In this document: positions 15,843 through 31,837 of the stretch, piece by piece
Numbering within the stretch: position 1 is the first letter of the stretch
How the letters are laid out: the number at the start of each line of letters is the position of its first letter
From: Candidatus Krumholzibacteriia bacterium
GTDB taxonomy: Bacteria > Krumholzibacteriota > Krumholzibacteriia > Krumholzibacteriales > Krumholzibacteriaceae
Direction of reading: 5' to 3'
Assembly: GCA_023131975.1 (NCBI GenBank)
Contig: JAGLYV010000010.1
Span: 1 to 32,629 of the forward strand
DNA: 32,629 nt
Notes under the pieces: generated by a model
The model's database searches: none
Told to the model about the DNA's origin: nothing
Seen by the model: the letters and a program-made list of their open reading frames with translations, nothing else
Translations under genes and position numbers: made by a program

Positions 15843-18056
15843 TCATTTTTTCTTTTCGATCCTGATTCGCCCCGTCCCCTTCTTCGTAAACGAACCTATG
15901 ATCGCGGAATCCACTCCGCGACTGAGAAGCATGTCGTGAAGCCTGACCGCTTCGCCCCGCGGCAGTGCTATCAGGAGCCCCCCCGATGTCTGGGCATCGC
16001 AGATCACCATGCGGTCTGTCTCGGATATCGTTTTATCCCAGTCTGTCATATCGGCTGTGAACAGATGATTGTTCACTGTTCCTCCCGGTATATTACCCTC
16101 CTCCGCCAGTTCCCTGGTCCCTTCTATGAGCGGGATACTTTCTTTCCACAACACCGCGTCGATTCCGCTTCCTTTCGTCATCTCTCTCAGATGCCCTACA
16201 AGCCCGAACCCTGTCACGTCCGTACAGGCGTTTACCGGGAAATCGGCCATTGTCTCGGCAGCCGTGCGGTTAAGACCACTCATGACTGAGATCGCCTTTT
16301 CCCTTGTCTCTTTATTCGCGCTCCCGTTTTTCATCGCTGTAGCGATTATTCCCGTCCCAAGAGGCTTCGTGAGGATGATGCTGTCACCGGGCCTGGCACT
16401 TGAATTCCGCAGTATGGAATCCGGGTGGACTATGCCGGTCACTGCCAGCCCGTACTTGGGCTCGGTATCTTCGATAGTATGTCCTCCGATGATCGATATT
16501 CCAGCCTCATCAGCTTTCGAAAGTGCCCCTTCCAGAATCTTGCGCAGGATATCGAGCGACAGCCTTTTGTCGGGAAATCCCACTATGTTCAGGCCGAACA
16601 GCGGTTTCGCGCCCATCGCGTAAAGATCACTCAGCGAATTGGCCGCCGCGATGACTCCAAAAGTGAAAGGGTCGTCGACGATCGGCGTAAAAAAATCGAC
16701 CGTCTGCACGATCGCGATATCGTCACTGATCCTGTATACCGCTGCGTCGTCGGACGTATCCTTTCCGACAAGGACATCGGGATCATCGGAGGAGGGCAGG
16801 CCTTCCAGCACCTTCTCGAGGTCCTGCGGTCTCAATTTGCAGGCACATCCGAGGCCATGCGTGTACCTGGTCAACCTGACCGATTCTCCATCCTCGACTA
16901 TATCTTCCTGTCTGTCCGCATCGGGGCCGAGTCTGCCGGCCGCTTTCAGAATGATCTCTGCCGCTCTATCCACCTCATCGACCGTGGTCATTCGTCCCGT
17001 CGAAAGTCTTATTGTCCCCATAGCGATGTCCACCGGTATCTTCATGGCCTCCAGGACAATGGATACATCGATCGAATCTGTATGGCAGGCGGCTCCCGCG
17101 GAAGCGGCTACCTCTCCGGCGATCTCATCGAGCAGTGTGTTCGCCTCTACGAAAGGAAAACTCACACTGAGAGTATTGGGAAGCCTCTGATCGATGCTCC
17201 CGTTTATCCTGATCCCTGGTGAGCCGACGAGCAGAAGGTCCTGGAGCCTGTCTCTCATCTCCCCCATATGGTCCATGTTTATTGCCAGATCTCTTTCAGC
17301 TACTTCCGCGGCCTTGCCCAGGCCGGCGATCTCGAGAATGTTCTCCGTCCCGGCTCTTATGTTCCTCTCGTGATCGGCACCGTGGATAAGCTTGGCCAGT
17401 TTAACGCCGGGCCTTATATAGAGTGCTCCGATCCCTTTTGGAGCATAAAACTTGTGTCCCGCCACAGAGAGAAGGTCCACCCCCAGTTCGTCGACCTTCA
17501 CAGGTACCTTTCCGACTGATTGAGCCGCGTCGGAATGAAAGATTATCCCCTTTTCCCTGGCGATCGCGGCGAGTCCGCTCACCGGCTGGATAGTTCCGAC
17601 TTCGTTATTGGCATGCATGACCGTCGCCAGAATCGTATCGGGAGATATAGCATCCCGGAAATCATCGATCGAGACAAGCCCCTCGCTGTCTACCGGCAGG
17701 TATGTGACCCTGAATCCTTCACCCTCCAGGAACCGACATACCTCCATAACGGCCGGATGTTCTATCGACGAAGTTATAATGTGATTGCCTTTATCCCTGA
17801 GGGCGATAGCAGCCCCCTTTATTGCCAGATTGTTCGATTCGCTGCCGCCGCTGGTGAATATCACCTCGTCCGGGTTGCACCCCAGTAGCCTGGCAAGCGA
17901 CCTCCGGGCATCACTTACCGTCTTTCTTGCCTGCAGGCCGTACCAGTGGGAACTCGAGGGATTCCCGAAATATTCATCAAGAAACGGCCTCATGGCCGCC
18001 GCGACCTCTGGAGAGATCGGCGTAGTCGCGTTATAGTCGAGATAAACAGGTAACAT
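15843..18056 (-). CDS. selD: cysteine desulfurase fused to selenide, water dikinase (NifS-SelD)
   Basis: A 737-residue bifunctional enzyme of selenium metabolism. Residues 1 to about 385 form a NifS/IscS-type PLP desulfurase with SGGSESNN, the aldimine lysine Lys202 (AGHKFYAPKG) and the likely persulfide cysteine Cys324 (SAGAACHT). Residues from about 395 form SelD, making selenophosphate from selenide and ATP, with the essential Cys404 and Lys407 in GCACK (compare GCGCK in E. coli SelD) and DTSDDAAV in the nucleotide region. The fusion implies that selenium released from selenocysteine, or carried as a perselenide, is handed directly to the SelD site. Cys, not selenocysteine, occupies the SelD active site. 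ATG 18056 has GGGAG upstream. It is the first gene of a leftward operon, divergent from the GH99-like gene. Products could feed selenocysteine or selenouridine synthesis. Confidence 0.95.
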   Translation of the reverse strand: MLPVYLDYNATTPISPEVAAAMRPFLDEYFGNPSSSHWYGLQARKTVSDARRSLARLLGCNPDEVIFTSGGSESNNLAIKGAAIALRDKGNHIITSSIEHPAVMEVCRFLEGEGFRVTYLPVDSEGLVSIDDFRDAISPDTILATVMHANNEVGTIQPVSGLAAIAREKGIIFHSDAAQSVGKVPVKVDELGVDLLSVAGHKFYAPKGIGALYIRPGVKLAKLIHGADHERNIRAGTENILEIAGLGKAAEVAERDLAINMDHMGEMRDRLQDLLLVGSPGIRINGSIDQRLPNTLSVSFPFVEANTLLDEIAGEVAASAGAACHTDSIDVSIVLEAMKIPVDIAMGTIRLSTGRMTTVDEVDRAAEIILKAAGRLGPDADRQEDIVEDGESVRLTRYTHGLGCACKLRPQDLEKVLEGLPSSDDPDVLVGKDTSDDAAVYRISDDIAIVQTVDFFTPIVDDPFTFGVIAAANSLSDLYAMGAKPLFGLNIVGFPDKRLSLDILRKILEGALSKADEAGISIIGGHTIEDTEPKYGLAVTGIVHPDSILRNSSARPGDSIILTKPLGTGIIATAMKNGSANKETREKAISVMSGLNRTAAETMADFPVNACTDVTGFGLVGHLREMTKGSGIDAVLWKESIPLIEGTRELAEEGNIPGGTVNNHLFTADMTDWDKTISETDRMVICDAQTSGGLLIALPRGEAVRLHDMLLSRGVDSAIIGSFTKKGTGRIRIEKKK

Positions 18057-18293: not shown

Positions 18294-19406
18294 ATGACAA
18301 AAAATATGATCTTTTTACTGATAATGACTCTTCTGATGTCTTGCGGCGATGGGAAAGAAAAAAACCGCAGCGGACCGAGAGATACCCCTCCCATGTCCGC
18401 GCGCTCCCACGATATACATATCTTCTACCATGCTGGATTCGGGACTCCGGAGATCGACGGCGAATACCGGAGCTGGAACAGCGAGGGCGAGAATAAAATG
18501 GGTGAATCCCTTTCTTACCCCGGAGGCATGGATATCGCTTCCAGTTTCTTTCCCGCCTACGGGTGTTACAGTTCGAATGATCCCCGGGTGATTGAAAGCC
18601 ATATGGGACAACTCGCCGTAGCCCAGACTGGGGTCGTATGTGTATTGTGGTACGGAAAAGACTCATATGAAAGTCGACCTGTTCAGATGATCCTGGACAC
18701 GGCCGTACGATACAGCATCAGGGTAGACTTCATGATCGCCGCTTATGAAGGCCGGACGATAGAATCGGTCGCCGGGGATATCCGGCACATAATCGATACA
18801 TGGGGAAAACACGAGGCCTTTTACATAACCGACAGATCCGGCATGCTCCCGATGTTCTTTATCGAACAGACCTGGTCGTTTGAGACGGAAGTCTGGGCTT
18901 CGATTCTCAGTGAAAAAGGAACCGGCACGATCAGAAACACCCCTTTTGACGCCATACTTATCGGCGGCTGGGAGGACAGCGGGGACGGCGACAGGGTCCT
19001 CGACGCGGGATTCGACGGATTCTACACCCCATACTCGAGCGCGGAGACCTGGGGAGCTGATGTGACCAACTGGGAGGAAATGAATCTATTCGCGATGGAC
19101 AACACACTGATCTTCATTCCCACCCTGCGTCCTGGATATGACGACACAAGGATCCACTCCTGGAACGGCGGCGCTGTTATAGATAGAGACGTTGGAGAAT
19201 TCTACATGACGATGGTCAAAGCTGCCTTGAAGCTCAAACCTCCCTATATTTCTCTCGATTCCTTCAACCACTGGCAGGCAGGGACCCAGATCGAACCGGC
19301 CGCACCCCTGAAGCTCCAGGAATTCGAATACAAAAATTACAGGGATGAGAACGGATACAGATATTTACGGGTCACCAAGGAATGGGTAAAGGGGTTCTCC
19401 AGATAG
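18294..19406 (+). CDS. GH99-like (endo-alpha-mannosidase family) lipoprotein with altered active site
   Basis: A 370-residue predicted lipoprotein (lipobox LLMSC at residues 13-17, then GDGK). The rest fits the GH99 (beta/alpha)8 family, whose members cleave inside alpha-mannan or glucosylated mannose glycans: FYHAGFGTPEIDG at the start, then MDIASSFFPAYGCYSSNDP, VIESHM and GVVCVLWYG. The C-terminal catalytic loop reads FNHWQAGTQIEPA. In characterised GH99 enzymes this loop is NEWHEGTQIE, with both glutamates catalytic. Here they are His326 and Ala329, although the GTQIE that follows is intact. The protein is therefore probably not a standard GH99 hydrolase and may bind glycans or use other chemistry. 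ATG 18294 follows AGGAGG by nine bases. It is likely cotranscribed with the EamA gene. Confidence 0.85.
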   Translation: MTKNMIFLLIMTLLMSCGDGKEKNRSGPRDTPPMSARSHDIHIFYHAGFGTPEIDGEYRSWNSEGENKMGESLSYPGGMDIASSFFPAYGCYSSNDPRVIESHMGQLAVAQTGVVCVLWYGKDSYESRPVQMILDTAVRYSIRVDFMIAAYEGRTIESVAGDIRHIIDTWGKHEAFYITDRSGMLPMFFIEQTWSFETEVWASILSEKGTGTIRNTPFDAILIGGWEDSGDGDRVLDAGFDGFYTPYSSAETWGADVTNWEEMNLFAMDNTLIFIPTLRPGYDDTRIHSWNGGAVIDRDVGEFYMTMVKAALKLKPPYISLDSFNHWQAGTQIEPAAPLKLQEFEYKNYRDENGYRYLRVTKEWVKGFSR

Positions 19407-20490: not shown

Positions 20491-22260
20491 TCACCGTCCG
20501 GACAGATATTCGTTGATCGACCAGGCGGCCTTTTTACCGGTGCCTATCGCGCCTACCGCGTCGTCAGGGCCGGTCTCACAGTCGCCGCCGGCGAAAACGC
20601 CATCGATACTCGTCGTCATTCTTTCCTGATCGGCTTCGAAATTGCCCCATTTATCAAGCTTGATCCCGGCTTCACGAGCGACCTCGTCCTCGACCTTCTG
20701 CCCTATCGCCATCACACAGGTGTCTGCCTCAATAGTGAATTCGGACCCCTCGATCGCCTCAGGCCTCCGCCTGCCGCTCGAATCGGGCTCACCCAGACGC
20801 ATCCTTCTGCAGGTGAGATGAAGCCTGCCGCCCTGCTCCGTCATCTTTTCCGGAGTAGTCAGGAAGTTAAACTCCACGCCCTCCTCCATCGCCTCTTCCA
20901 CTTCCTCCGCATTCGCCGGCATCTCCTTCCTACTCCTCCGGTAGACGACCTCCACTTCGGACCCGAGCCTGAGAGCCGACCTGGCAACGTCCATGGCTGT
21001 ATTCCCGCCACCGACTACTATCGTCTTCTTCCCGATATCGGGCCTTTCGCCTTTCGAAATACGATCCAGGAAATCCAGTCCGATATGGACCGCCGGAAGA
21101 TCACTGCCCTCTACAGGCATATCTGTCCCGATCTGTGCCCCGACCGAGACAAAGACAGCATCGTAGTCGTCCAGGATCTGGCGTGCCGATATATCTTTTC
21201 CTACCCTGACGCCGGTCTTTATCTCGACACCGGCATCCTCGATCACTTTGATCTCTCTGGCGAGCACCTCGTCAGGAAGCCTGTACTCGGGTATACCGCT
21301 AAGCAACATGCCACCCGGCTTGTCCTGCTGTTCGAAGACTCTCACCTCGTGTCCGTAATGAGCGAGATAAAAACCAGCTGTAAGTCCGGCAGGACCAGCG
21401 CCTATGATGGCCACCTTTTTCCCTGTCGCGGGGATGTCTTCGGTTTCCAGTATAGAATCCCGGATATCGAGAGTATTATCAGTTATGTACCTCTTGAGCC
21501 AGCGGATAGCCAGCGGCCTTCCCTGCGCTCCGACAGGGCAGGCTGTCTCGCAATGCGCGGTGCATACTCGCCCGCACGATTCAGAGAAAGGATTCGTGTC
21601 GTAGAGGATCCTGAGACCTTCTTCGAGCTCTCCATCCCTGATAGCCTTTATATATTGTGGAACATCCATGTGGGTTGGACAGGCCTCGATACAGAGGCCG
21701 CATTCGATGCATCTGGCCGCTTCTTCAAGCGCCGCCTCGGTCGTATATCCCAGCATCATCTCATCGAAGTTCTTTTTGCGGACATCGGGTTCGACGAATC
21801 TCATCGAAGCACGGACCGGCTCTATCAGCCAGGACTCGTCCGTGGTCCTGTACCCCTTCTCCGACATATCCCATGGCTTCTGATCTCCTCCGGGAACGAA
21901 TACCCAGTCCTCACCATCATCCGAGATCCAGTTATACTCGTTCGACATCCCGAGGCTGGCGGTCGGGCATACATCGACGCACAGGGCACACCAGCAGCAT
22001 CTGCCGTAATCTATCGAAGGCCTCAGGCCGCTGTCTCCCCGCTTCGTCTCCTGGCCGGGCAACTCGACCATATCGATGGCCGCGTTCTGGCAGATAGCCT
22101 CGCAGGTACCGCATCCGACGCACTTGCCGAGATCGTTTATATGGAATCCCCTGTACGCGGGGGCACCCTCCCGGTCCGTACGCGGCCGCATGATCGTGAA
22201 CGGTTTTTCGAACGCCCTTTTCCAGGCGTAGAAGGGAGATATGATGTCTCTGAGTTTCAT
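20491..22260 (-). CDS. NuoI/MbxN-type ferredoxin subunit fused to GltD/NfnB-type FAD-NADPH oxidoreductase
   Basis: A 589-residue electron-transfer protein. Residues 1-150 form a NuoI-like two-cluster ferredoxin (CVGCGTCEAIC and CCWCALCVDVC), the position normally filled by MbxN/NuoI. From about 175 it continues as a GltD/NfnB-like flavoprotein: an N-terminal iron-sulfur region (CIECGLCIEAC, then CGRVCTAHCETAC), FAD-binding GAGPAGLTAG, NADPH-binding GGGNTAMD followed by YRRSRKEMPA, and a closing FAD motif AGGDCETGP. The fusion would let NADPH or NADP+ exchange electrons with the membrane complex through the flavin and four clusters. It starts at ATG 22260, one base after the NuoD-like stop, and is the last gene of the operon. 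GAGAGG precedes the start. Direction of electron flow is unknown. Confidence 0.92.
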   Translation of the reverse strand: MKLRDIISPFYAWKRAFEKPFTIMRPRTDREGAPAYRGFHINDLGKCVGCGTCEAICQNAAIDMVELPGQETKRGDSGLRPSIDYGRCCWCALCVDVCPTASLGMSNEYNWISDDGEDWVFVPGGDQKPWDMSEKGYRTTDESWLIEPVRASMRFVEPDVRKKNFDEMMLGYTTEAALEEAARCIECGLCIEACPTHMDVPQYIKAIRDGELEEGLRILYDTNPFSESCGRVCTAHCETACPVGAQGRPLAIRWLKRYITDNTLDIRDSILETEDIPATGKKVAIIGAGPAGLTAGFYLAHYGHEVRVFEQQDKPGGMLLSGIPEYRLPDEVLAREIKVIEDAGVEIKTGVRVGKDISARQILDDYDAVFVSVGAQIGTDMPVEGSDLPAVHIGLDFLDRISKGERPDIGKKTIVVGGGNTAMDVARSALRLGSEVEVVYRRSRKEMPANAEEVEEAMEEGVEFNFLTTPEKMTEQGGRLHLTCRRMRLGEPDSSGRRRPEAIEGSEFTIEADTCVMAIGQKVEDEVAREAGIKLDKWGNFEADQERMTTSIDGVFAGGDCETGPDDAVGAIGTGKKAAWSINEYLSGR

Positions 22261-22261
22261 G

Positions 22262-23479
22262 CTACCTCTCTATCTCCGGTGGACATGTCTGAAGCGATAC
22301 AGCCAGTCCGCCTACATCCGCTATGCTGATCCCGACTGCGAGATGCTCAAGCAGAGACATCGCGTGTGTATAGCTCGCGCCACGCACATGCACCCTCCTC
22401 GGATACCCGGAACCATCGCTGACCATGTAATATCCCATCTCGCCGCGACCCGTTTCGGCCCGCACATAAGTCTCGCCCGGGGGTATCCTCCAGTGAAGGA
22501 CGTTGGGCAGCTTTACCCTGACTGGCCCATCCTTCGGCATCCTTTTGAATATCTGTCTGATCAGGTCGATAGACATCAGGATCTCTTCCTTCCTCAGCAG
22601 CGACCGCTCGTAGGCGTCTGAGCGGCCTCCCGTGATGACATTAAAATCGAGCTGGTCATATATCAGGTATGGGGTGTCTTTTCTGACATCGTTAGCGATC
22701 CCGGTACCCCTGGCATTCGTGCCGGTAATTCCGAAAGGCTCTACCCACGATGCCGGGATCACACCCAGTCCCTGCGACCTGCTTTTTATGACGGCGTTGT
22801 CGAAGAGGACCTTTTCCAGATCGTATATCAGTTTCTCTATCTTTTTGAGGACAGCCTCGGTCCTATCTTCGAATCCGTCGGGAAGATCGCCTCGTACCCC
22901 GCCGGGGATTATGTACATATGGTATATCCTGTGGCCACTCAACTCTTCGAACAGATCGAGGATATAATCGCGATGCGCGATCGCCCACTGTCCGACAGTA
23001 CCGAGTCCGAACGATCCTCCCTGTCCACCGAGGCCCATTACAAGTGACGCGATCCTGATCATCTCCAGGGTCAACGCCCGGAGCCACCTCGCTTTTTCCG
23101 GTATCTCTATACCGGCAAGTTCCTCGGCAGCTGCGGCAAAAAGATATTCGTTATAATCAGGTTCGGGAACACAGATCCTGCAGACGATGGGAAAACACTG
23201 GATATATTTTCTTCTCTCCATCAACTTCTCGAATCCCCTGTGCAGATACCCTACATGGGTCTTCGCGTCGACTACGATATCGCCTTCCAGTGTAAGTTCG
23301 AGGGCCATATTGCCCGTGATGCCTGGATGCTGCGGCCCCTGCCATATCTTCAGGTACTTGCCTGAAGAGAGGTCGAACGATGGCCTTTCAGTCCAGACGG
23401 GATACCATGGGTCCCTCGTCTCCCTGACCGGCATCAGGTCGGGTTGTTTTCTGATCTTGTCTCCCTGCTGCCTATCCAT
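22262..23479 (-). CDS. mbxL: NuoD/MbxL-like large subunit with incomplete NiFe ligands
   Basis: A 405-residue homologue of the complex I 49-kDa subunit and group 4 hydrogenase large subunit. It begins with GPQHPGITG, typical of NuoD/HycE-type proteins. The N-terminal cysteine pair is kept (Cys100-x-x-Cys103 in VCRIC) with an extra Cys95. At the C-terminus the usual DPCxxCxxR motif reads QTCPPEIER, so Cys399 is present but the last ligand is Glu402. Hydrogenases need four cysteines for NiFe, whereas NuoD has none; an intermediate set is, from memory, a mark of MBX/MBS complexes that act on sulfur species. The start ATG 23479 overlaps the NuoC-like stop by eight bases and has AAGGAAGGG upstream. 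Confidence 0.88.
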   Translation of the reverse strand: MDRQQGDKIRKQPDLMPVRETRDPWYPVWTERPSFDLSSGKYLKIWQGPQHPGITGNMALELTLEGDIVVDAKTHVGYLHRGFEKLMERRKYIQCFPIVCRICVPEPDYNEYLFAAAAEELAGIEIPEKARWLRALTLEMIRIASLVMGLGGQGGSFGLGTVGQWAIAHRDYILDLFEELSGHRIYHMYIIPGGVRGDLPDGFEDRTEAVLKKIEKLIYDLEKVLFDNAVIKSRSQGLGVIPASWVEPFGITGTNARGTGIANDVRKDTPYLIYDQLDFNVITGGRSDAYERSLLRKEEILMSIDLIRQIFKRMPKDGPVRVKLPNVLHWRIPPGETYVRAETGRGEMGYYMVSDGSGYPRRVHVRGASYTHAMSLLEHLAVGISIADVGGLAVSLQTCPPEIER

Positions 23480-24065
23480 CGTTACCCTTCCTTTTCCTCC
23501 TGCCCCTCACCAGGTCCTTCACCGAACGTTTCACCTGCTCCTCGCTGGCATAATTCTTTTCGGCCATATGAGTGGCCGGGTCGGCCGTCTTTCTTCCTTC
23601 ACGTGGGAAGAAGGTCTCTTCGGAATATTTTTTTGTATCGAAATCTCTTCTCATCGGGGGGATTCCTTCCCACCCCTCCAGCAGCATGGGCTCGTCGACA
23701 CGAGGGCTGCCGGGAAAATCGATCCCGAACATCTCCCTGAGTTCGCGCTGGTACACCTGCGCGGCGGCCCATAGCCGATGGATACTGTCCATAGACGCGT
23801 CGTCGCGACCGATATCCGCCCTGATACCGATATCGTTCTGTTTTTCGTAGCTGTGAAGAAGGTAAGTCAGCTGGAAGACCCCCCTCTCGATATAGTCGAC
23901 GGCCGAGATCATCACGAGGTGGCGATATCCGGCCCGGTCCCTGAGATAGCCCAGACAGTCCACGACCTGCGTGGCCGGTACGGTCACGAAAACGAGATCC
24001 TCGCGTTTCTCGTCGGCGTCTCCCCCATCGAACATCGATCTTATCTTGTCTATAGTATCCTTCAT
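23472..24065 (-). CDS. mbxK: NuoC/MbxK-like 30-kDa subunit
   Basis: A peripheral-arm subunit of about 197 residues that scaffolds the NuoD- and NuoB-like subunits. The complex I 30-kDa signature is visible as RELREMFGIDFPGSPRVDEPMLLEGWEG followed by PMRRDF. The basic C-terminal tail (RGRRKRKGNDG) overlaps the next gene by eight bases. The start is uncertain: ATG 24065 fits homologues best, but AGGAGG lies about 30 bases further upstream. GTG 24077 or TTG 24122 (216 residues) are possible. Confidence 0.87.
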   Translation of the reverse strand: MKDTIDKIRSMFDGGDADEKREDLVFVTVPATQVVDCLGYLRDRAGYRHLVMISAVDYIERGVFQLTYLLHSYEKQNDIGIRADIGRDDASMDSIHRLWAAAQVYQRELREMFGIDFPGSPRVDEPMLLEGWEGIPPMRRDFDTKKYSEETFFPREGRKTADPATHMAEKNYASEEQVKRSVKDLVRGRRKRKGNDG

Positions 24066-24145
24066 ATTCCTTTTCACTGCCCCTTGCCCAGGGACCCTCC
24101 TGCCACCACCGCGCCGTTCCAACGGTCGGCGGTCGCGGCACCTGG

Positions 24146-24772
24146 CTACCAGTTGTACTCCGGCATGTTCCAGTTCTTGATGATCTTCTTCTGGTTATTC
24201 TTGTACCAGTCGAAATTCTCAGCGTAAGTGTTTGCCCCTTCAGCCTTTCCTTCCATGATCAATTCCTTCAACCTGTCGAACCCGGCAATCAGCGATTCAG
24301 GCCGCGGCATGCAACCGGCCACATAGACGTCGACGGGAATATAGTGATCGAGGCGGTTGATCGTGTTGTAGCTGTCCCAGTACATCCCGCCGTTCACCGT
24401 GCAACTGCCGAGGCCCATGACGAATTTCGGGTTCTGTATCTGTTCGTAACTTCTAATTATCCTCTTCATCGTCTTTATAGACGCGTAACCTCCGATGATG
24501 AAGAGACTGGACTGCCTGGGAGTCGGCCTGGGAAAGAGGCCGTACCTGGAGACATCGTACCTTGCCGTAAAGAGAGGCCTCAGTTCGATGGCTCCGCATC
24601 CCGTGCCGAAGCCCAGGATGAATATCGAGTTCGCCTGTGCCCAGTTCTGGAAATTCCTCACTATCCTGTTCGCGGATGGCGAGACAGGCGATGGCCTGGC
24701 ATCACAGAAATACTCGCTGATCTCGTCGAAGCCCTCGTCAATTCCGTTCACTTTTTTTATCTCGTCACTCAT
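24146..24772 (-). CDS. mbxJ: NuoB/MbxJ-like small subunit with one cluster cysteine missing
   Basis: A 208-residue subunit carrying the terminal 4Fe-4S cluster next to the catalytic NuoD-like subunit. The family core is clear: FGTGCGAIE, VMGLGSCTVNGGMY and DVYVAGCMPRPESL. NuoB normally has tandem cysteines in the first motif (CCAIE). Here only Cys59 remains and the next residue is Gly60, leaving Cys59, Cys124 and Cys154, so the cluster has an open or borrowed ligand. The N-terminal 35 residues and the C-terminal 45 residues are extensions beyond the core. The start ATG 24772 is preceded by GAGG. It follows the NuoH-like gene by ten bases. Confidence 0.9.
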   Translation of the reverse strand: MSDEIKKVNGIDEGFDEISEYFCDARPSPVSPSANRIVRNFQNWAQANSIFILGFGTGCGAIELRPLFTARYDVSRYGLFPRPTPRQSSLFIIGGYASIKTMKRIIRSYEQIQNPKFVMGLGSCTVNGGMYWDSYNTINRLDHYIPVDVYVAGCMPRPESLIAGFDRLKELIMEGKAEGANTYAENFDWYKNNQKKIIKNWNMPEYNW

Positions 24773-24782
24773 TGTCTATCCT

Positions 24783-25697
24783 CTATTTCCATGCGCTTAT
24801 TACCACCGCGAGTATCCCCACAGCCAGCGGAATCCTGATAAACCACCTTATCGACTGCTCCACCCTGTACCGCGGGAAGACAACGCCGGCAAAGACCACG
24901 ACCATAAGGAGAGCGAATGTCTTCACCACCATGACAAATATTGACGTCGCTCCACCGAAGAAGAGATTCATGAAAAGTATCAGCTTGGCCGCGTGAAAGA
25001 TCGACCTGTTCGTCTGCATCAGTGCCAGATAACTGCTGTGAAATTCTGTCGGTGGCCCTATCGGTATTTCCTGGGGCGCGAGGTGGACATCGAAAGGGGA
25101 GTGCATCATCATACCGAAGAATGCGAGCATCCCCGCCAGAGTGGCCACAGGATTCGTGATCATATTCCAGTGGGCTATCCCGCCCTGCTGCGCCGCGACT
25201 ATATCTGTGATCGACAGTGTTTGGTGCTGAGCCGCCAGGGCCATCAGCGCCAGCGCGAATGGAAGTTCCGCTGCCGTGTTCTGTGCCAGTCCCCTCATGA
25301 TCCCTATCGCCGAGTAGGGGTGTCCGCTTTCCGCCGCTCCGAGCGCCATTCCAAGCATCCCGAAGAAAACGAAATAGACCACGAGGATCACGTCTCCGGC
25401 AAAACTGAAATTCTGCATCCAGGAAGATCCATAAACGACGGGCATGAAGAACAGGAGCCCGATACCTCCGACTATCCTGAACACGGGTCCAAGATAGAAC
25501 ATGATCCCGTGCGACAGAGCCGTACGCATCGACAGGGTCTTCAATATGTTTATGTAGGGCTGCCAGATCGGCGGACCGATCCTGCCATGTACACGAGCAA
25601 CAATAATGGTCACAAGACCGACCAGGAGCAGACCGTAGTTCATCACGACCATGAGAGTCGCCAGAGAGTATCCCGCCTGCTTCAATACCTCCATCAT
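24783..25697 (-). CDS. mbxM: NuoH/MbxM-like membrane subunit
   Basis: A 304-residue subunit with about eight membrane helices that links the soluble redox arm to the ion-pumping arm. Family features include ARVHGRIGP (the conserved N-terminal Arg-x-x-x-Gly-Pro loop), ALGAAESGHPYSAIGIMRGLAQ, and the loop SPFDVHLAPQEIPIGPPTEF with conserved acidic residues. Its ATG at 25697 overlaps the antiporter-fusion stop by ATGA, with GGGAGG six bases upstream. Its position directly upstream of the NuoB-like gene is the MBX gene order (M before J, K, L, N) and not that of the canonical nuo operon. Confidence 0.92.
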   Translation of the reverse strand: MMEVLKQAGYSLATLMVVMNYGLLLVGLVTIIVARVHGRIGPPIWQPYINILKTLSMRTALSHGIMFYLGPVFRIVGGIGLLFFMPVVYGSSWMQNFSFAGDVILVVYFVFFGMLGMALGAAESGHPYSAIGIMRGLAQNTAAELPFALALMALAAQHQTLSITDIVAAQQGGIAHWNMITNPVATLAGMLAFFGMMMHSPFDVHLAPQEIPIGPPTEFHSSYLALMQTNRSIFHAAKLILFMNLFFGGATSIFVMVVKTFALLMVVVFAGVVFPRYRVEQSIRWFIRIPLAVGILAVVISAWK

Positions 25698-28600: not shown

Positions 28601-28852
28601 TGTGAATACCGCTTCCTCCATCCCGACCCTGAGATTTATCGAGAACGGCGGCCTGAATCCTGCCGTGAATATCTCACCGATCTCACATCGTCCGGTCAGA
28701 AGCGAGAAGAGCCAGTGCCAGCTGATAAGGGCTATGCCGGAGAGAGCCGCGAGAAAGACAGTCTCTGCCGCACCTTTCTTTGCCCGCTCAAGAAGCGGTA
28801 GAAGAAAAGCGATGCCCAGGGCTATTATGAATATGTATATCGGTGTTACCAT
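25694..28852 (-). CDS. double MnhD/NuoN-type antiporter subunit (MbxH'-MbxH fusion)
   Basis: A 1052-residue polytopic membrane protein made of two complete proton-translocation modules in one frame. The first (about 1-465) has FVFMEITGIASYAL (helix-5 Glu) and FMIEMKQFPANGWALD (helix-7 Lys), but the next lysine of the family (LTKVG) is replaced by the AGSAGAA region. The second (about 470-960) has FYAWELMTFSSYIL, LVKVAGMGLHVWAP and SKAGVLGF, keeping the full Glu/Lys/Lys set. A C-terminal amphipathic stretch and a last helix (about 970-1052) resemble MbhH/HyfB tails. MBX complexes usually encode these as two genes. Start ATG 28852 overlaps mnhC by seven bases. It pumps Na+ or H+ when electrons flow through the redox arm; the ion is not known. 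Confidence 0.92.
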   Translation of the reverse strand: MVTPIYIFIIALGIAFLLPLLERAKKGAAETVFLAALSGIALISWHWLFSLLTGRCEIGEIFTAGFRPPFSINLRVGMEEAVFTSAINLATLAGAVYLIRELSGRGTKSMMLYLLFVMGMNGMVLTRDIFNLFVFMEITGIASYALVALRLDTKGLTAGFKYAIAGSLASIFMLLGIIVIYMITGTLNIDSIASRMVSFSGTAAAGFVAPAVFMLVFAFMIEMKQFPANGWALDVYDSAAPGISAMISAGSAGAALFAIYKILPIAGEGWYMAAAITGSVTFVAANLIGLKQERAGRLLGYSSIGQMGLLLTVVSLGLKGSLPSWQLIAVGLFINHLLAKAGLFWLTGITGEDRIRNWGVIARRPFLLMMMGLFMAALSGFPPFPAFWSKWTLVMSMFSGGMKVWVVFILLGSLFEVAYLFRWFGYAVRGGVEDGESGDIVKGTPEKTAVIFFGAALLTAVAYYMMGKMIDNSTLMLMPLVGAAGLLLFERFDPRVRGIVSLAAVLYYGYMIIPGLSGMPLFFNSFFLGGGAIMLLATLHRRTASRGFYPMLLLMIGSLSALALSSTSLQFFYAWELMTFSSYILVLRGKKAMKPALLYMVFSAAGAYLVMAGFASAGGTVFGGAGDGIAGMSGSLQMLPFILLAAGFLVKVAGMGLHVWAPGAYAEAEDDSSAIISSILSKAGVLGFVFLFIKAGTAFTGSTYLYSTIGWIGAITAFFGALYAAMQEDAKKLLAWSSIGQVGYMILGLAAMNQIGWVAALYHSVSHFMFKGLLFLAVAGVVYRTGTRNMYEMGGLIKRMPMSFISVMIGIIALSGVPPLTGFGGKWLLYNALIERGWYLQAALAFFSSTVAFLYCFRLVHAIFLGQAKPAFRKIKEAPRSLIAAQYILIMAIMMFSMKPSILIKPIMGIVGERFDTLLTWQANTLYSPFGYWNGFAVMMVVCALFAILLVILLLISPKPQKVKQFNIVFAAERPETPETTHYAWKFFTPYERAFSGILKPAATRFWNAVGEWAEAVAAMSRHIYSGNTGAYVVQIFIFGILLFILSRGGLS

Positions 28853-29190
28853 TTCGAATCCGTATAATCCCTCACGTCAAGAGAACCTCTTTTCCCATAC
28901 ATCCTTATTATAAATGCAAGCATCAACGCGTTTACCGCCACGCCGATGACGATGGCAGTCAGTACCAGAGCCTGGGGCACGGGATCGACGAAACTCGCCA
29001 GTTCCGTGATATCTTCTGTCAGTATCGGAGCTGTCCCGCCCCTGATGAACCCGGCCGTGATCATCACCATCTGGAGGCCGACTTCCGTGATCGCGACGCT
29101 CAGCACCATCTTGATCATGTTCCGCCTCGTCATAAGGCCGTAGAACCCGGTCAACATCAGGAGAAGTCCGATTACCAGCACAGCTTTCAA
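28846..29190 (-). CDS. mnhC: MnhC/MrpC (NuoK-like) antiporter subunit
   Basis: A 114-residue protein with three membrane helices, homologous to MrpC, MbhG and NuoK. It carries the conserved helix-2 glutamate in VAITEVGLQMVM and the motif VPQALVLTAIVIGVA. The start is TTG 29190 with AGGAGG five bases upstream, overlapping the MnhB-like stop. In the complex it packs between the MnhB-like subunit and the MnhD-type modules to form part of the ion path. Confidence 0.92.
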   Translation of the reverse strand: MKAVLVIGLLLMLTGFYGLMTRRNMIKMVLSVAITEVGLQMVMITAGFIRGGTAPILTEDITELASFVDPVPQALVLTAIVIGVAVNALMLAFIIRMYGKRGSLDVRDYTDSKW

Positions 29191-29909
29191 GAGGGCCTCC
29201 TCATCTGTTCGAGGATTCCCACCAGTTCTGCTCCTACCTTCAGACCGATCAACGAATATATCACGGGAATCGCCCCGGCGCTCAATATCCTGCCGAACTC
29301 TCCGACAGGAAGGAACCTTGCGTCCAAAAATCCTCCCGCGAGGATAAGGCCCAAAAGCCCTAACCCGACATAGACTGTGCCGGAAAGCGATTCCGTCACC
29401 TTGAGTACTCCATGGTTGAGCGAGTAGAAAGGGTGAGACAGGAAAAGAAGGACTATCGCGGAAGCGATAACGGCTCCCCCCTGAAATCCCCCACCGGGAG
29501 AAAGATGCCCGTTGACAAAAATGTAAACGCCGAAGACTGCTATCGCCGGCACTACGATATCGGAACCGGTCTCGAGGATCTCGCTGGCTTTCCTGCGGGT
29601 CTTTTCATTCTCCAGGCCACCTGCATTACCACCATCCTGTTTTCTCGAGAGCCTTCCAGCTCCCAGCAGAAAGCCTATCCCTGCCGCGGCGAGAAAAAGG
29701 ACACTGACCTCACCGAGCGTATCGAGCCCTCTGTAAGTCACGACGATCGCTGTGACTATATTTGCGGCGCCAAGCTCTTCCCTGCCTTTTTCCATGTAAT
29801 GGCGAGCGATCTCGCCGAGGCCGGACAGTCCTTCCCAGCCAGTTACCATAAGCAGAAACTGCCATGCGAAAAACGCGAGGACCAGAAATATGAGTGCTCT
29901 TTTAATCAT
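29187..29909 (-). CDS. mnhB: MnhB/MbhE-MbhF-type antiporter subunit
   Basis: A membrane protein of about 240 residues combining an N-terminal MbhE-like part (two helices, with VVTYRGLDTLGEVSVLF) and a C-terminal MrpB domain with four helices (VYIFVNGHLSPGGGFQGGAV and GLKVGAELVG). The motif HLSPGGGFQGG is diagnostic for MrpB/MbhF. Its ATG at 29909 overlaps the preceding gene as ATGATTAA; an ATG three codons earlier (29918) is also in frame. Archaeal MBH splits these parts into two genes, so the joined form follows the MBX pattern. Confidence 0.9.
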   Translation of the reverse strand: MIKRALIFLVLAFFAWQFLLMVTGWEGLSGLGEIARHYMEKGREELGAANIVTAIVVTYRGLDTLGEVSVLFLAAAGIGFLLGAGRLSRKQDGGNAGGLENEKTRRKASEILETGSDIVVPAIAVFGVYIFVNGHLSPGGGFQGGAVIASAIVLLFLSHPFYSLNHGVLKVTESLSGTVYVGLGLLGLILAGGFLDARFLPVGEFGRILSAGAIPVIYSLIGLKVGAELVGILEQMRRPS

Positions 29910-30156
29910 CGTCCACATCCCTGTCAGTCGTCCTTCTCAGTGCGTACAGAAAGATCACCGTCGAAAGCCCCGCCCCGATCGCCGCTTCGGTCATCGCCAC
30001 ATCCGGAGCCTGCATTATCAGGTAGATAATGCTCGAAAAAAGACTGAGTATCCCGACCGCGATGACGGCCATGAGGAGATTCTTCGTATGCAGGGCGAAT
30101 ACCGCCGAAACAACCATCGTCACGCCCATGAGGATAATAAGAGCTGTGATGATCAT
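29902..30156 (-). CDS. MbhD-like (DUF4040) antiporter subunit
   Basis: An 84-residue protein with three helices, matching the MbhD/DUF4040 family, which corresponds to a C-terminal piece of MrpA (NuoJ-like). The core is IYLIMQAPDVAMTEAAIGAGL, with the buried conserved Asp and Glu of the ion path. It begins at ATG 30156, overlapping the MnhG stop by one base (TGATG), and ends inside the MnhB-like start. Its presence without a full MrpA marks this as a respiratory-complex-linked Mrp module and not a stand-alone antiporter. Confidence 0.92.
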   Translation of the reverse strand: MIITALIILMGVTMVVSAVFALHTKNLLMAVIAVGILSLFSSIIYLIMQAPDVAMTEAAIGAGLSTVIFLYALRRTTDRDVDDD

Positions 30157-30569
30157 CAGCCACCACCCCCCAAGTCACCAGCCGGACGGTCATCATTTAT
30201 TGTGTCATTTCCAATCGGATCCGGGCTGCCGGAAGCAGCATCTTCAGCCTCTTCCACTTCGAGCCTGTCACAGACAGAACCTTTGACCAGCTTGACACCG
30301 GCAAAGTGCGCCGCCCTCGCGAGAGCGTGCGAAGATATGGGATTTGTGATCACGATAAAGGCCAGAAGAACGAGCATACGTGACAACAGGGCGGGATGAT
30401 AGATACCGAGCCCGATAAACACGCACATGCTTCCCAGTGTCGTCGCCTTGGTCCCGGCCTGGATCCTGTTATAGACATCGGGCATACGCAGAAGTCCCAA
30501 TCCTCCAAGAAAGAGAAATACCGAACCGATGAAAACGATTATCGCGCCTGCCAGCCGAAGGATCTCCAT
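30156..30569 (-). CDS. mnhG: MnhG/MrpG antiporter subunit
   Basis: A 137-residue protein with three helices in the first 95 residues. Family features are GGLGLLRMPDVYNRIQAGTKATTLG and the helix that follows. A hydrophilic tail of about 40 residues rich in Asp, Glu and Gly extends past the usual end of MrpG. Starts and stops overlap neighbours by one base on both sides (TGATG), showing tight translational coupling within the operon. Confidence 0.92.
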   Translation of the reverse strand: MEILRLAGAIIVFIGSVFLFLGGLGLLRMPDVYNRIQAGTKATTLGSMCVFIGLGIYHPALLSRMLVLLAFIVITNPISSHALARAAHFAGVKLVKGSVCDRLEVEEAEDAASGSPDPIGNDTINDDRPAGDLGGGG

Positions 30570-30838
30570 CAGAGTCCCCCTTCCAGGTAACGCGCGACCG
30601 CGACAACACCGATGAAGCTGAGGATCCCGTATATCATCGCCACATCGATAAATATGATCCTTCCGAAATACTGGGCCAGCATCGCTATGATAGAGATCGA
30701 TATAATCGTCAGCGTGTCGAAAGCGGCAGTCCGGTCCGCCGCGGTCGGCCCCATAAGGAACCTTAACGCCGCGAATACTATCGCCGCCATCGTCAACACA
30801 GCCGATGCGAAAAGAATGATCTCGATCAGATCAGCCAA
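30569..30838 (-). CDS. mnhF: MnhF/MrpF antiporter subunit
   Basis: An 89-residue, three-helix subunit. The motif RFLMGPTAADRTAAFDTLT is the MrpF signature, with the conserved Asp-Arg pair. The start is placed at TTG 30838 because GGAGG lies five bases upstream and it overlaps the MnhE stop by eight bases. An upstream in-frame start at 30874 would add 12 residues unlike the family. It acts with MnhE and MnhG in the membrane antiporter module. Confidence 0.9.
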   Translation of the reverse strand: MADLIEIILFASAVLTMAAIVFAALRFLMGPTAADRTAAFDTLTIISISIIAMLAQYFGRIIFIDVAMIYGILSFIGVVAVARYLEGGL

Positions 30839-31340
30839 AGATGACCTCCAGGTATTTCTCGAAACCAGCCACAATCATTTTTGCCTCTTCCTCTCCACCA
30901 TGACCCTGCACATCGATCCAGTGTATATACAGCCTGCTGCCCTTTATCTCTACAGAGAGAGTCCCCGGCGTAAGCGTGATGGAATTTGCCAGAACGGTCC
31001 GGCCGATCGGAGTAGTAAGCTTTGTATCAACCGCGACTATTCCGGGGTTGAGCGGTATCGTCGGTTTAATGACCCTGCTGGCTACATCCAGATTAGCCTT
31101 TACTATCTCTACCACCATGTATGGAATATAGGCGGCAGCGTATGCTATCTTTTTCAGCCCGGGACGCGGAAATATCCCACCCCTGACGAAGACAGCGCAT
31201 GTCCCGAAAGCCAGGACCGTGAAGATCGATATATCATATGGATCTGTCGCCCCTGTCCAGAACACATAGATCAGGGTAAACATCAGCCCGCTCAATATCA
31301 CGGCTCCAATCCTTCCTGATCTTTTTCCGCTTCCGCTCAT
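30831..31340 (-). CDS. mnhE: MnhE/MrpE antiporter subunit
   Basis: A 169-residue protein with two or three N-terminal helices and a cytoplasmic C-terminal domain. MrpE features include the ANLDVASRVIKPTIPLNPGIV region, then ANSITLTPGTLSVEI and LYIHWIDV. It is the first structural gene of the complex, 35 bases downstream of the MarR regulator gene, so both are likely on one transcript. Start ATG 31340. Confidence 0.93.
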   Translation of the reverse strand: MSGSGKRSGRIGAVILSGLMFTLIYVFWTGATDPYDISIFTVLAFGTCAVFVRGGIFPRPGLKKIAYAAAYIPYMVVEIVKANLDVASRVIKPTIPLNPGIVAVDTKLTTPIGRTVLANSITLTPGTLSVEIKGSRLYIHWIDVQGHGGEEEAKMIVAGFEKYLEVIFG

Positions 31341-31375: not shown

Positions 31376-31837
31376 CTATGATTCGGACCTGCTGTCGAGC
31401 CAGTCGGTCAACGCGAATACGAGATGCTCGACTGCGGTGATGACTGCTTTCCTCTGTGCCGGTTCTATCCTGTCAATGATCTCTCTGTGCATCTTGATCG
31501 AAGCCCGCTTGATCCGGGCGATCACCTTCTTACCTTCATCTGTGAGGACGACATCGATGTTCCTTCTGTCCTGAAGCGATATCCGTCTCTCGACAAGGCC
31601 CTGCTCTTCAAGACCCGCGATTATCCTGGTCACTCCGCCCGGCGTGATACCAAGACTTCCGCTAAGCTCTTTCATGCCGTGCGATCTGGTATCCACGAAC
31701 TGCATGAGACAATTATAGTCTCCGGATGATATCCCTTCGTTTGTCACAAAGTACATATCCTTGAGACAACATTTCTGTCTCAGTTCGAATATCAGTTCCG
31801 CCATTTTCAATACCTGATCGTCTTTACTGACATTCAT
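31376..31837 (-). CDS. MarR-family transcriptional regulator
   Basis: A 153-residue winged-helix DNA-binding protein. The recognition region MKELSGSLGITPGGVTRIIAGLEEQGLVERR and the wing DRRNIDVVLTDEGK are typical of MarR proteins, which act as dimers and repress until a ligand or oxidation event releases them. Cys23-Cys24 and Cys43 near the N-terminus could sense redox state or bind metal; this is speculative. It leads the MBX-like operon, so it probably controls that operon and itself. A palindrome overlapping its promoter is a candidate operator. ATG 31837 has only a weak ribosome binding site. Confidence 0.9.
   Translation of the reverse strand: MNVSKDDQVLKMAELIFELRQKCCLKDMYFVTNEGISSGDYNCLMQFVDTRSHGMKELSGSLGITPGGVTRIIAGLEEQGLVERRISLQDRRNIDVVLTDEGKKVIARIKRASIKMHREIIDRIEPAQRKAVITAVEHLVFALTDWLDSRSES

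Follow-up and report, generated by a model that had tools for sequence, protein, structure and literature searches.

The window, a stretch of 32,629 nt from a Candidatus Krumholzibacteriia bacterium (contig JAGLYV010000010.1), carries on its minus strand a complete gene set of the type that encodes the membrane-bound sulfane sulfur reductase of P. furiosus (MBS, formerly MBX; PDB 6U8Y). The features are collected in Table 1. Both antiporter-like modules of MBS are present, as is an Mrp module in which MbsE combines MbhE and MbhF; the same fusion of MbhE-type and MnhB-type domains has been described for MbsE of P. furiosus (PMC8415708). Cloacimonadota, Bacteroidales and other sufficiently long bacterial loci share the order A-B-C-D-E-G-HH'-M-J-K-L-N, with H and H' fused in the nearer clade and separate in the Mcinerneyibacterium and Peptococcaceae-titled loci. 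Two further genes of the window, one of them adjoining the operon, are included in the table.

Table 1. Genes and residues of the window (positions count from the first letter of the stretch; residues are numbered within their own protein)
Feature	Position	Strand	Basis or remark
737-aa fusion of NifS/IscS-type cysteine desulfurase and selenide, water dikinase SelD	15843..18056	-	
Glycoside hydrolase family 99-like protein	18294..19406	+	adjoins the operon
mbsN-like 2x[4Fe-4S] + GltD/NfnB-like NAD(P)H:FAD oxidoreductase, 589 aa (N)	20491..22260	-	NuoI models N-terminal, GltD models 130-588
mbsL-like, NuoD/49-kDa family, 405 aa (L)	22262..23479	-	best PDB sequence match 6u8y_L, E 9e-93
L Glu402	22274-22276	-	
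L Cys399	22283-22285	-	
L Glu106	23162-23164	-	
L Cys103	23171-23173	-	
L Cys100	23180-23182	-	
L Cys95	23195-23197	-	
mbsK-like, NuoC family	23472..24122	-	TIGR01961, E 2e-22; synteny
mbsJ-like, NuoB family (J)	24146..24772	-	best match 6u8y_J, E 1.6e-62; GTGC-GAIE, GSC and GCMPRP motifs
J Cys23	24704-24706	-	N-terminal extension
mbsM-like (NuoH) membrane anchor	24783..25697	-	NuoH model, E 5e-24; synteny
mbsH-mbsH' fusion, 1052 aa	25694..28852	-	PRK08377 residues 9-427, PRK08668 509-1045; two Proton_antipo_M stretches
mbsG-like (MrpC/NuoK)	28846..29190	-	PF00420, E 4e-22
mbsE-like, 243 aa, MbhE and MnhB/MrpB domains fused	29187..29918	-	PF20501 + PF04039
mbsD-like (MbhD type)	29902..30156	-	PRK08378, E 5e-22
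mbsC-like (MrpG)	30156..30569	-	PF03334
mbsB-like (MrpF)	30569..30874	-	PF04066
mbsA-like (MrpE)	30831..31340	-	PF01899
MarR-family regulator, head of operon	31376..31837	-	PF01047; also upstream in loci L057 and L008

The initial annotation described L as a catalytic subunit that keeps three of the four NiFe cysteines, with Glu402 as the last ligand. The reading frame of L, its Cys95, Cys100, Cys103, Cys399 and Glu402, and the QT that precedes Cys399 in place of DP were all confirmed in letters and coordinates. The register of the ligands was set by aligning L with 160-odd homologues from whole genomes, including nine hydrogenase-type large subunits, one of them encoded by another NuoD-like gene in this organism's genome (G000:C126, L002). 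Eight of these nine carry the N-terminal motif ERxCGIC and the ninth reads PRACGIC; the C-terminal DPCxxC is complete in most of them. Arg101 of L is invariant in the family and aligns without a gap with the Arg of ERxC, so that the first ligand of the hydrogenase N-terminal CxxC falls on Cys103 and the second on Glu106, while the column of Cys100 holds Glu in eight of the hydrogenase-type subunits and Pro in the other. The C-terminal ligand pair corresponds to Cys399 and Glu402. Columns 103, 106, 399 and 402 thus read C/E/C/E in place of the two CxxC pairs of group 4 [NiFe] hydrogenases, and L retains two of the four ligand positions, not three. Cys103 and Cys399 do stand at ligand columns, as annotated; Cys100 is out of register, and C100-x-x-C103 mimics the hydrogenase CxxC at an offset of three residues. 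The view that classic NiFe chemistry is unlikely is supported.

The same cysteine pairs are a published criterion that separates hydrogenases from MbxL, FuoD and NuoD (PMC6085437). In the alignment, Cys103 and Cys399 correspond to C85 and C385 of P. furiosus MbsL, the pair that MBS retains. L ends in PPEIER, without the C-terminal extension found after CTER in the hydrogenase. The loop that holds E21 in MbhL has no Glu in L, and the quinone residues Nqo4 H38 and Y87 are replaced by T55 and V104; the equivalents of all three residues are absent from P. furiosus MBS as well (PMC7684303).

Comparison with proteins of known structure placed both subunits closest to MBS. Against the PDB, L scored 314 bits with 6u8y_L, at most 222 bits with complex I, 140 with MbhL (6cfw_L) and 86 with formate hydrogenlyase subunit 5; J scored 214 bits with 6u8y_J, 127 with the next match and 78 with MbhJ. 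In a tree of 98 rows, a 66-row branch with support of 99 united L, PfMbsL and all GltD-fused bacterial sequences, and this branch was still present after the cysteine columns had been removed from the alignment. L is thus intermediate between hydrogenase and complex I, as had been proposed, in that it groups with MbsL, a published intermediate. An AlphaFold2 monomer of L (pTM 0.83, with pLDDT below 50 at residues 100-103 and 400-405) was searched with Foldseek, which bore out the fold; 6u8y_L ranked sixth by E-value and had top TM-scores among the 50 matches listed. The E-values do not separate MBS from complex I, chains of which rank as high as 6u8y_L.

An ordinary quinone-reducing variant of complex I is what the automatic label implies, as L scores above the cut-off of the NCBIfam model 'NADH-quinone oxidoreductase subunit D', and L does share with respiratory complex I (NuoD/NuoB) its fold and the Glu at position 402. 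Complex I differs, however, in having no cysteines at 103 and 399, in the tandem CC pair of NuoB, which J lacks in the alignment, and in its quinone His and Tyr, which L lacks. Given these absences and the grouping of L with MbsL, we regard this explanation as very improbable. Automatic annotation labels bacterial MBS-type L proteins NuoD.

Mbh, the group 4 [NiFe] hydrogenase, has homologous L, J, M, H and Mrp-type subunits, but it differs in its four complete ligands, in a J CxxC with a three-residue longer loop and in the C-terminal extension of L. A second operon of the same genome (L053, G000:C126) encodes an Mrp-linked [NiFe] hydrogenase of Mbh type in which the four ligands are all present, so that the organism, like P. 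furiosus, pairs an Mbh-like with an MBS-like complex; no third NuoD-like gene was found in the genome beyond L and the Mbh-type hydrogenase gene. In one Cloacimonadota locus (L190), genes for Mbh-like M, J and L stand immediately after an MBS-like operon whose N is GltD-fused. Judged from its sequence, the L gene is not that of a hydrogenase with a damaged site; it is that of a subunit of a bacterial relative of archaeal MBS.

Conservation of the cysteines was scored in 96 bacterial homologues, the window included, that matched at 300 bits or more and had both L regions readable. None has Cys at position 106 or 402, so that close homologues with all four ligands, the case that would have overturned the initial annotation, did not appear. 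Cys100, Cys103 and Cys399 occur together in 40 of the 96; Cys103 and Cys399 are both present in 61 and both absent in 14, and no L cysteine is universal in the set. Tyr takes the place of Cys399 in many Cloacimonadota and Bacteroidales, and Val does so in another group; some homologues have Ala, Thr, Ser or Asn for Cys103. Some of the Bacteroidales carry Ile or Val at the Cys100 position, frequently with a Cys directly before it. Across the family Glu106 and Glu402 hardly vary. In J, by comparison, Cys59, Cys124 and Cys154 are present in the bacterial homologue groups wherever those stretches can be read.

It had been proposed that the pattern in L defines a distinct metal or cluster site. Such a mononuclear or cluster site, lying between a NiFe site and none, would use the cysteines with Glu402 and Glu106, and Cys103, Cys399 and the two nearly invariant glutamates do fill the four ligand columns. 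However, Glu402 is the usual residue in complex I too, without metal there, and many members have other residues for Cys103 and Cys399. Moreover, P. furiosus MBS has the same two cysteines and no NiFe site; its C85 and C385 lie about 12 Å from the proximal cluster and are dispensable, the C85A/C385A enzyme being fully active (PMC7684303). This explanation is the least probable of those considered, with hardly any likelihood left to it. The odd cysteines of L are mostly explained by MBS kinship, and we infer that they are relics or local tuning residues and not a metal site. The natural variants, which lose each leftover NiFe cysteine separately, make the relic claim testable.

Since the L cysteines vary and the J cysteines do not, the conserved special feature of the family is the three-Cys motif of J. 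Cys59, Cys124 and Cys154 are the predicted ligands of the proximal [4Fe-4S] cluster, and the motif holds no fourth Cys, as in MBS; GTGC-GxIE, GSC and GCMPRP recur in nearly all close homologues. The unusual site of the complex is this predicted three-Cys cluster in J, not a site in L. In P. furiosus MBS no more than three MbsJ cysteines bind the proximal [4Fe-4S] cluster, and this cluster reduces polysulfide (PMC7684303). By analogy of sequence, J probably carries a reactive three-Cys [4Fe-4S] cluster of the same kind. Gly56 of J occupies the position of P. furiosus MbsJ Cys25, an unused cysteine, and nearly all close homologues likewise have Gly in this column. Several Cloacimonadota J proteins (L010, L069, L093, L095 and others) read VCSC for LGSC, which puts an extra Cys two positions ahead of the second ligand of the cluster. 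In nine Asgard loci (L161, L170, L172, L173, L175, L178, L179, L181 and L183), single ORFs of about 670 aa hold both J and L homologues; these are probably J-K-L fusions, and such single chains would be useful for modelling the J-L interface.

The retention of Cys100 in most close relatives suggests that it has a role beyond the explanation given so far. Of 98 sequences at close and middle range, 75 have it, and nearly all the close ones have Gly for Cys25 of J; Cys100 also persists in the L054/L190-L194 group, in which Cys103 and Cys399 are both lost. The Glu aligned with it in hydrogenases (by our own mapping, Glu73 of Hyd-5) lies near the proximal cluster (PMC3940037). Cys100, with or without Cys95 and J Cys23, could be a functional thiol beside the proximal cluster, either as a fourth, inter-subunit ligand in place of the missing J Cys25 or as a relay that binds persulfide and serves the sulfur substrate. 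Against this, eight homologues, mainly Bacteroidales, lack both Cys99 and Cys100 yet keep the three-Cys J motif, and the L055/L190-L194 group has J Cys25 together with L Cys100. A test on independent pairs yielded only two pairs, too few to show coupling, and the AlphaFold2 monomer is unreliable at L residues 100-103. We consider a functional thiol improbable, and slightly more so its elaborated form, in which Cys100, perhaps with Cys95 and J Cys23, would act in this bacterial clade as a switchable inter-subunit ligand or persulfide relay at the open iron of J, in a sulfur reductase that pumps ions at the expense of NAD(P)H. A strict replacement of J Cys25 by Cys100 fitted the first 20 loci and was rejected as a general rule across more than 160 homologues. 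J Cys23 is an extra cysteine shared by many, not all, of the homologues with L Cys95; the two vary together only loosely (both in 33, neither in 20, one alone in 25).

A departure from the MBS of P. furiosus lies in N. Complexes of the P. furiosus type have a separate small ferredoxin-oxidizing MbsN with two [4Fe-4S] clusters; in N, a pair of [4Fe-4S] motifs like those of MbsN/NuoI stands at the N-terminus, ahead of a GltD-like part that has FAD and NAD(P) sites and a further pair of [4Fe-4S] motifs. The fusion contains the domains Fer4_7, Fer4_20 and Pyr_redox_2 and aligns across phyla, and bacterial homologues have it down to a score of about 300 bits; in Asgard archaea N is a short subunit. 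As the other sequence features of MBS are all present, we file the complex as an MBS variant and not as a strict member, and it is almost certainly of MBS type without NiFe. Its electron partner is likely to be NAD(P)H, as predicted from the GltD-like part. The nucleotide-binding loop of N reads YRR, which in GltD-like proteins is associated with NADPH; the loop is not the same in other members, and the coenzyme may therefore differ among them. We take the MBX operon of Thermotoga maritima to end in a glutamate-synthase-like gene, in which case the GltD fusion may already exist there. No published description of a GltD-fused MBS was found in a targeted literature search, which does not prove that none exists.

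Taken together, the comparison with P. furiosus MBS and the domain content lead us to favour, with reasonable though not strong confidence, a bacterial MBS-type complex that would act as an NAD(P)H-driven, ion-pumping reductase of sulfane sulfur, polysulfide or other disulfides. The sequence itself gives only the architecture. In the proposed mechanism, NAD(P)H would reduce the FAD of the GltD part, and electrons would pass from the [4Fe-4S] clusters of that part through those of MbsN to the proximal cluster of J. In the chamber formed by J, L and M, the cluster iron without a cysteine ligand would then reduce an S-S bond, that of polysulfide or another, and the energy would pump ions by way of M, the antiporters of the H-H' fusion and the Mrp-type module A-G. 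For sulfane sulfur in particular as the acceptor, we put the chances at about even. Some points count against this reading. Less energy is released by electron transfer from NAD(P)H to polysulfide than from ferredoxin to polysulfide, which makes coupling less obvious, and no dedicated sulfur enzyme marks the locus. In a search of the same genome, the closest gene resembling a CoA-disulfide reductase scored well below the cut-off.

A different direction of electron flow has to be weighed. The complex could be a ferredoxin:NAD(P)+ oxidoreductase, with the GltD part making NADPH and the J/L chamber serving electron transfer or being vestigial. This is the older proposal for MBX, once described as a ferredoxin:NADP+ oxidoreductase in a statement quoted in PMC6349859, and the N fusion would supply the NAD(P)H module. 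In such an enzyme, however, there would be no need for electrons to travel as far as the J cluster, which lies at the coupling loops, and the presence of a three-Cys motif in J would go unexplained. We judge this alternative unlikely, if somewhat less so than a functional Cys100 thiol.

The similarities to P. furiosus MBS extend to genes A-N, the MbsE fusion, the two antiporter modules, an L with only the C85/C385 equivalents, the shortened three-Cys J motif and the lack of quinone and hydrogenase proton residues. The window complex differs in the fusion of MbsN to a GltD-like NAD(P)H flavoprotein, the fusion of MbsH with MbsH', the change of J Cys25 to Gly, the extra Cys100 and Cys95 of an L that is about 39% identical, and its bacterial host. 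The finding on L as first stated is largely explained by known biology, and what remains of interest is the bacterial architecture linked to NAD(P)H, which we infer to be present in several anaerobic bacterial phyla. This suggests that NiFe-free MBS-type complexes are common in anaerobic bacteria, where a GltD/NfnB-type NAD(P)H module of their own would stand in for the NuoEFG module of complex I. It further suggests that this module is a second route by which the lineage from hydrogenase to complex I gained a pyridine-nucleotide partner.

Two other bacterial systems resemble the window complex. The Ehr complexes of Margulisbacteria and Saganbacteria are likewise group 4-like and Mrp-linked and have lost the NiFe ligands, but differ in their proposed pairing with formate dehydrogenase and NuoE/F-like subunits (PMC6349859). 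The MBX of Thermotoga maritima, likened to the window complex here by description, is a bacterial MBS homologue reported to be up-regulated with sulfur (PMC9431562, PMC2246101).
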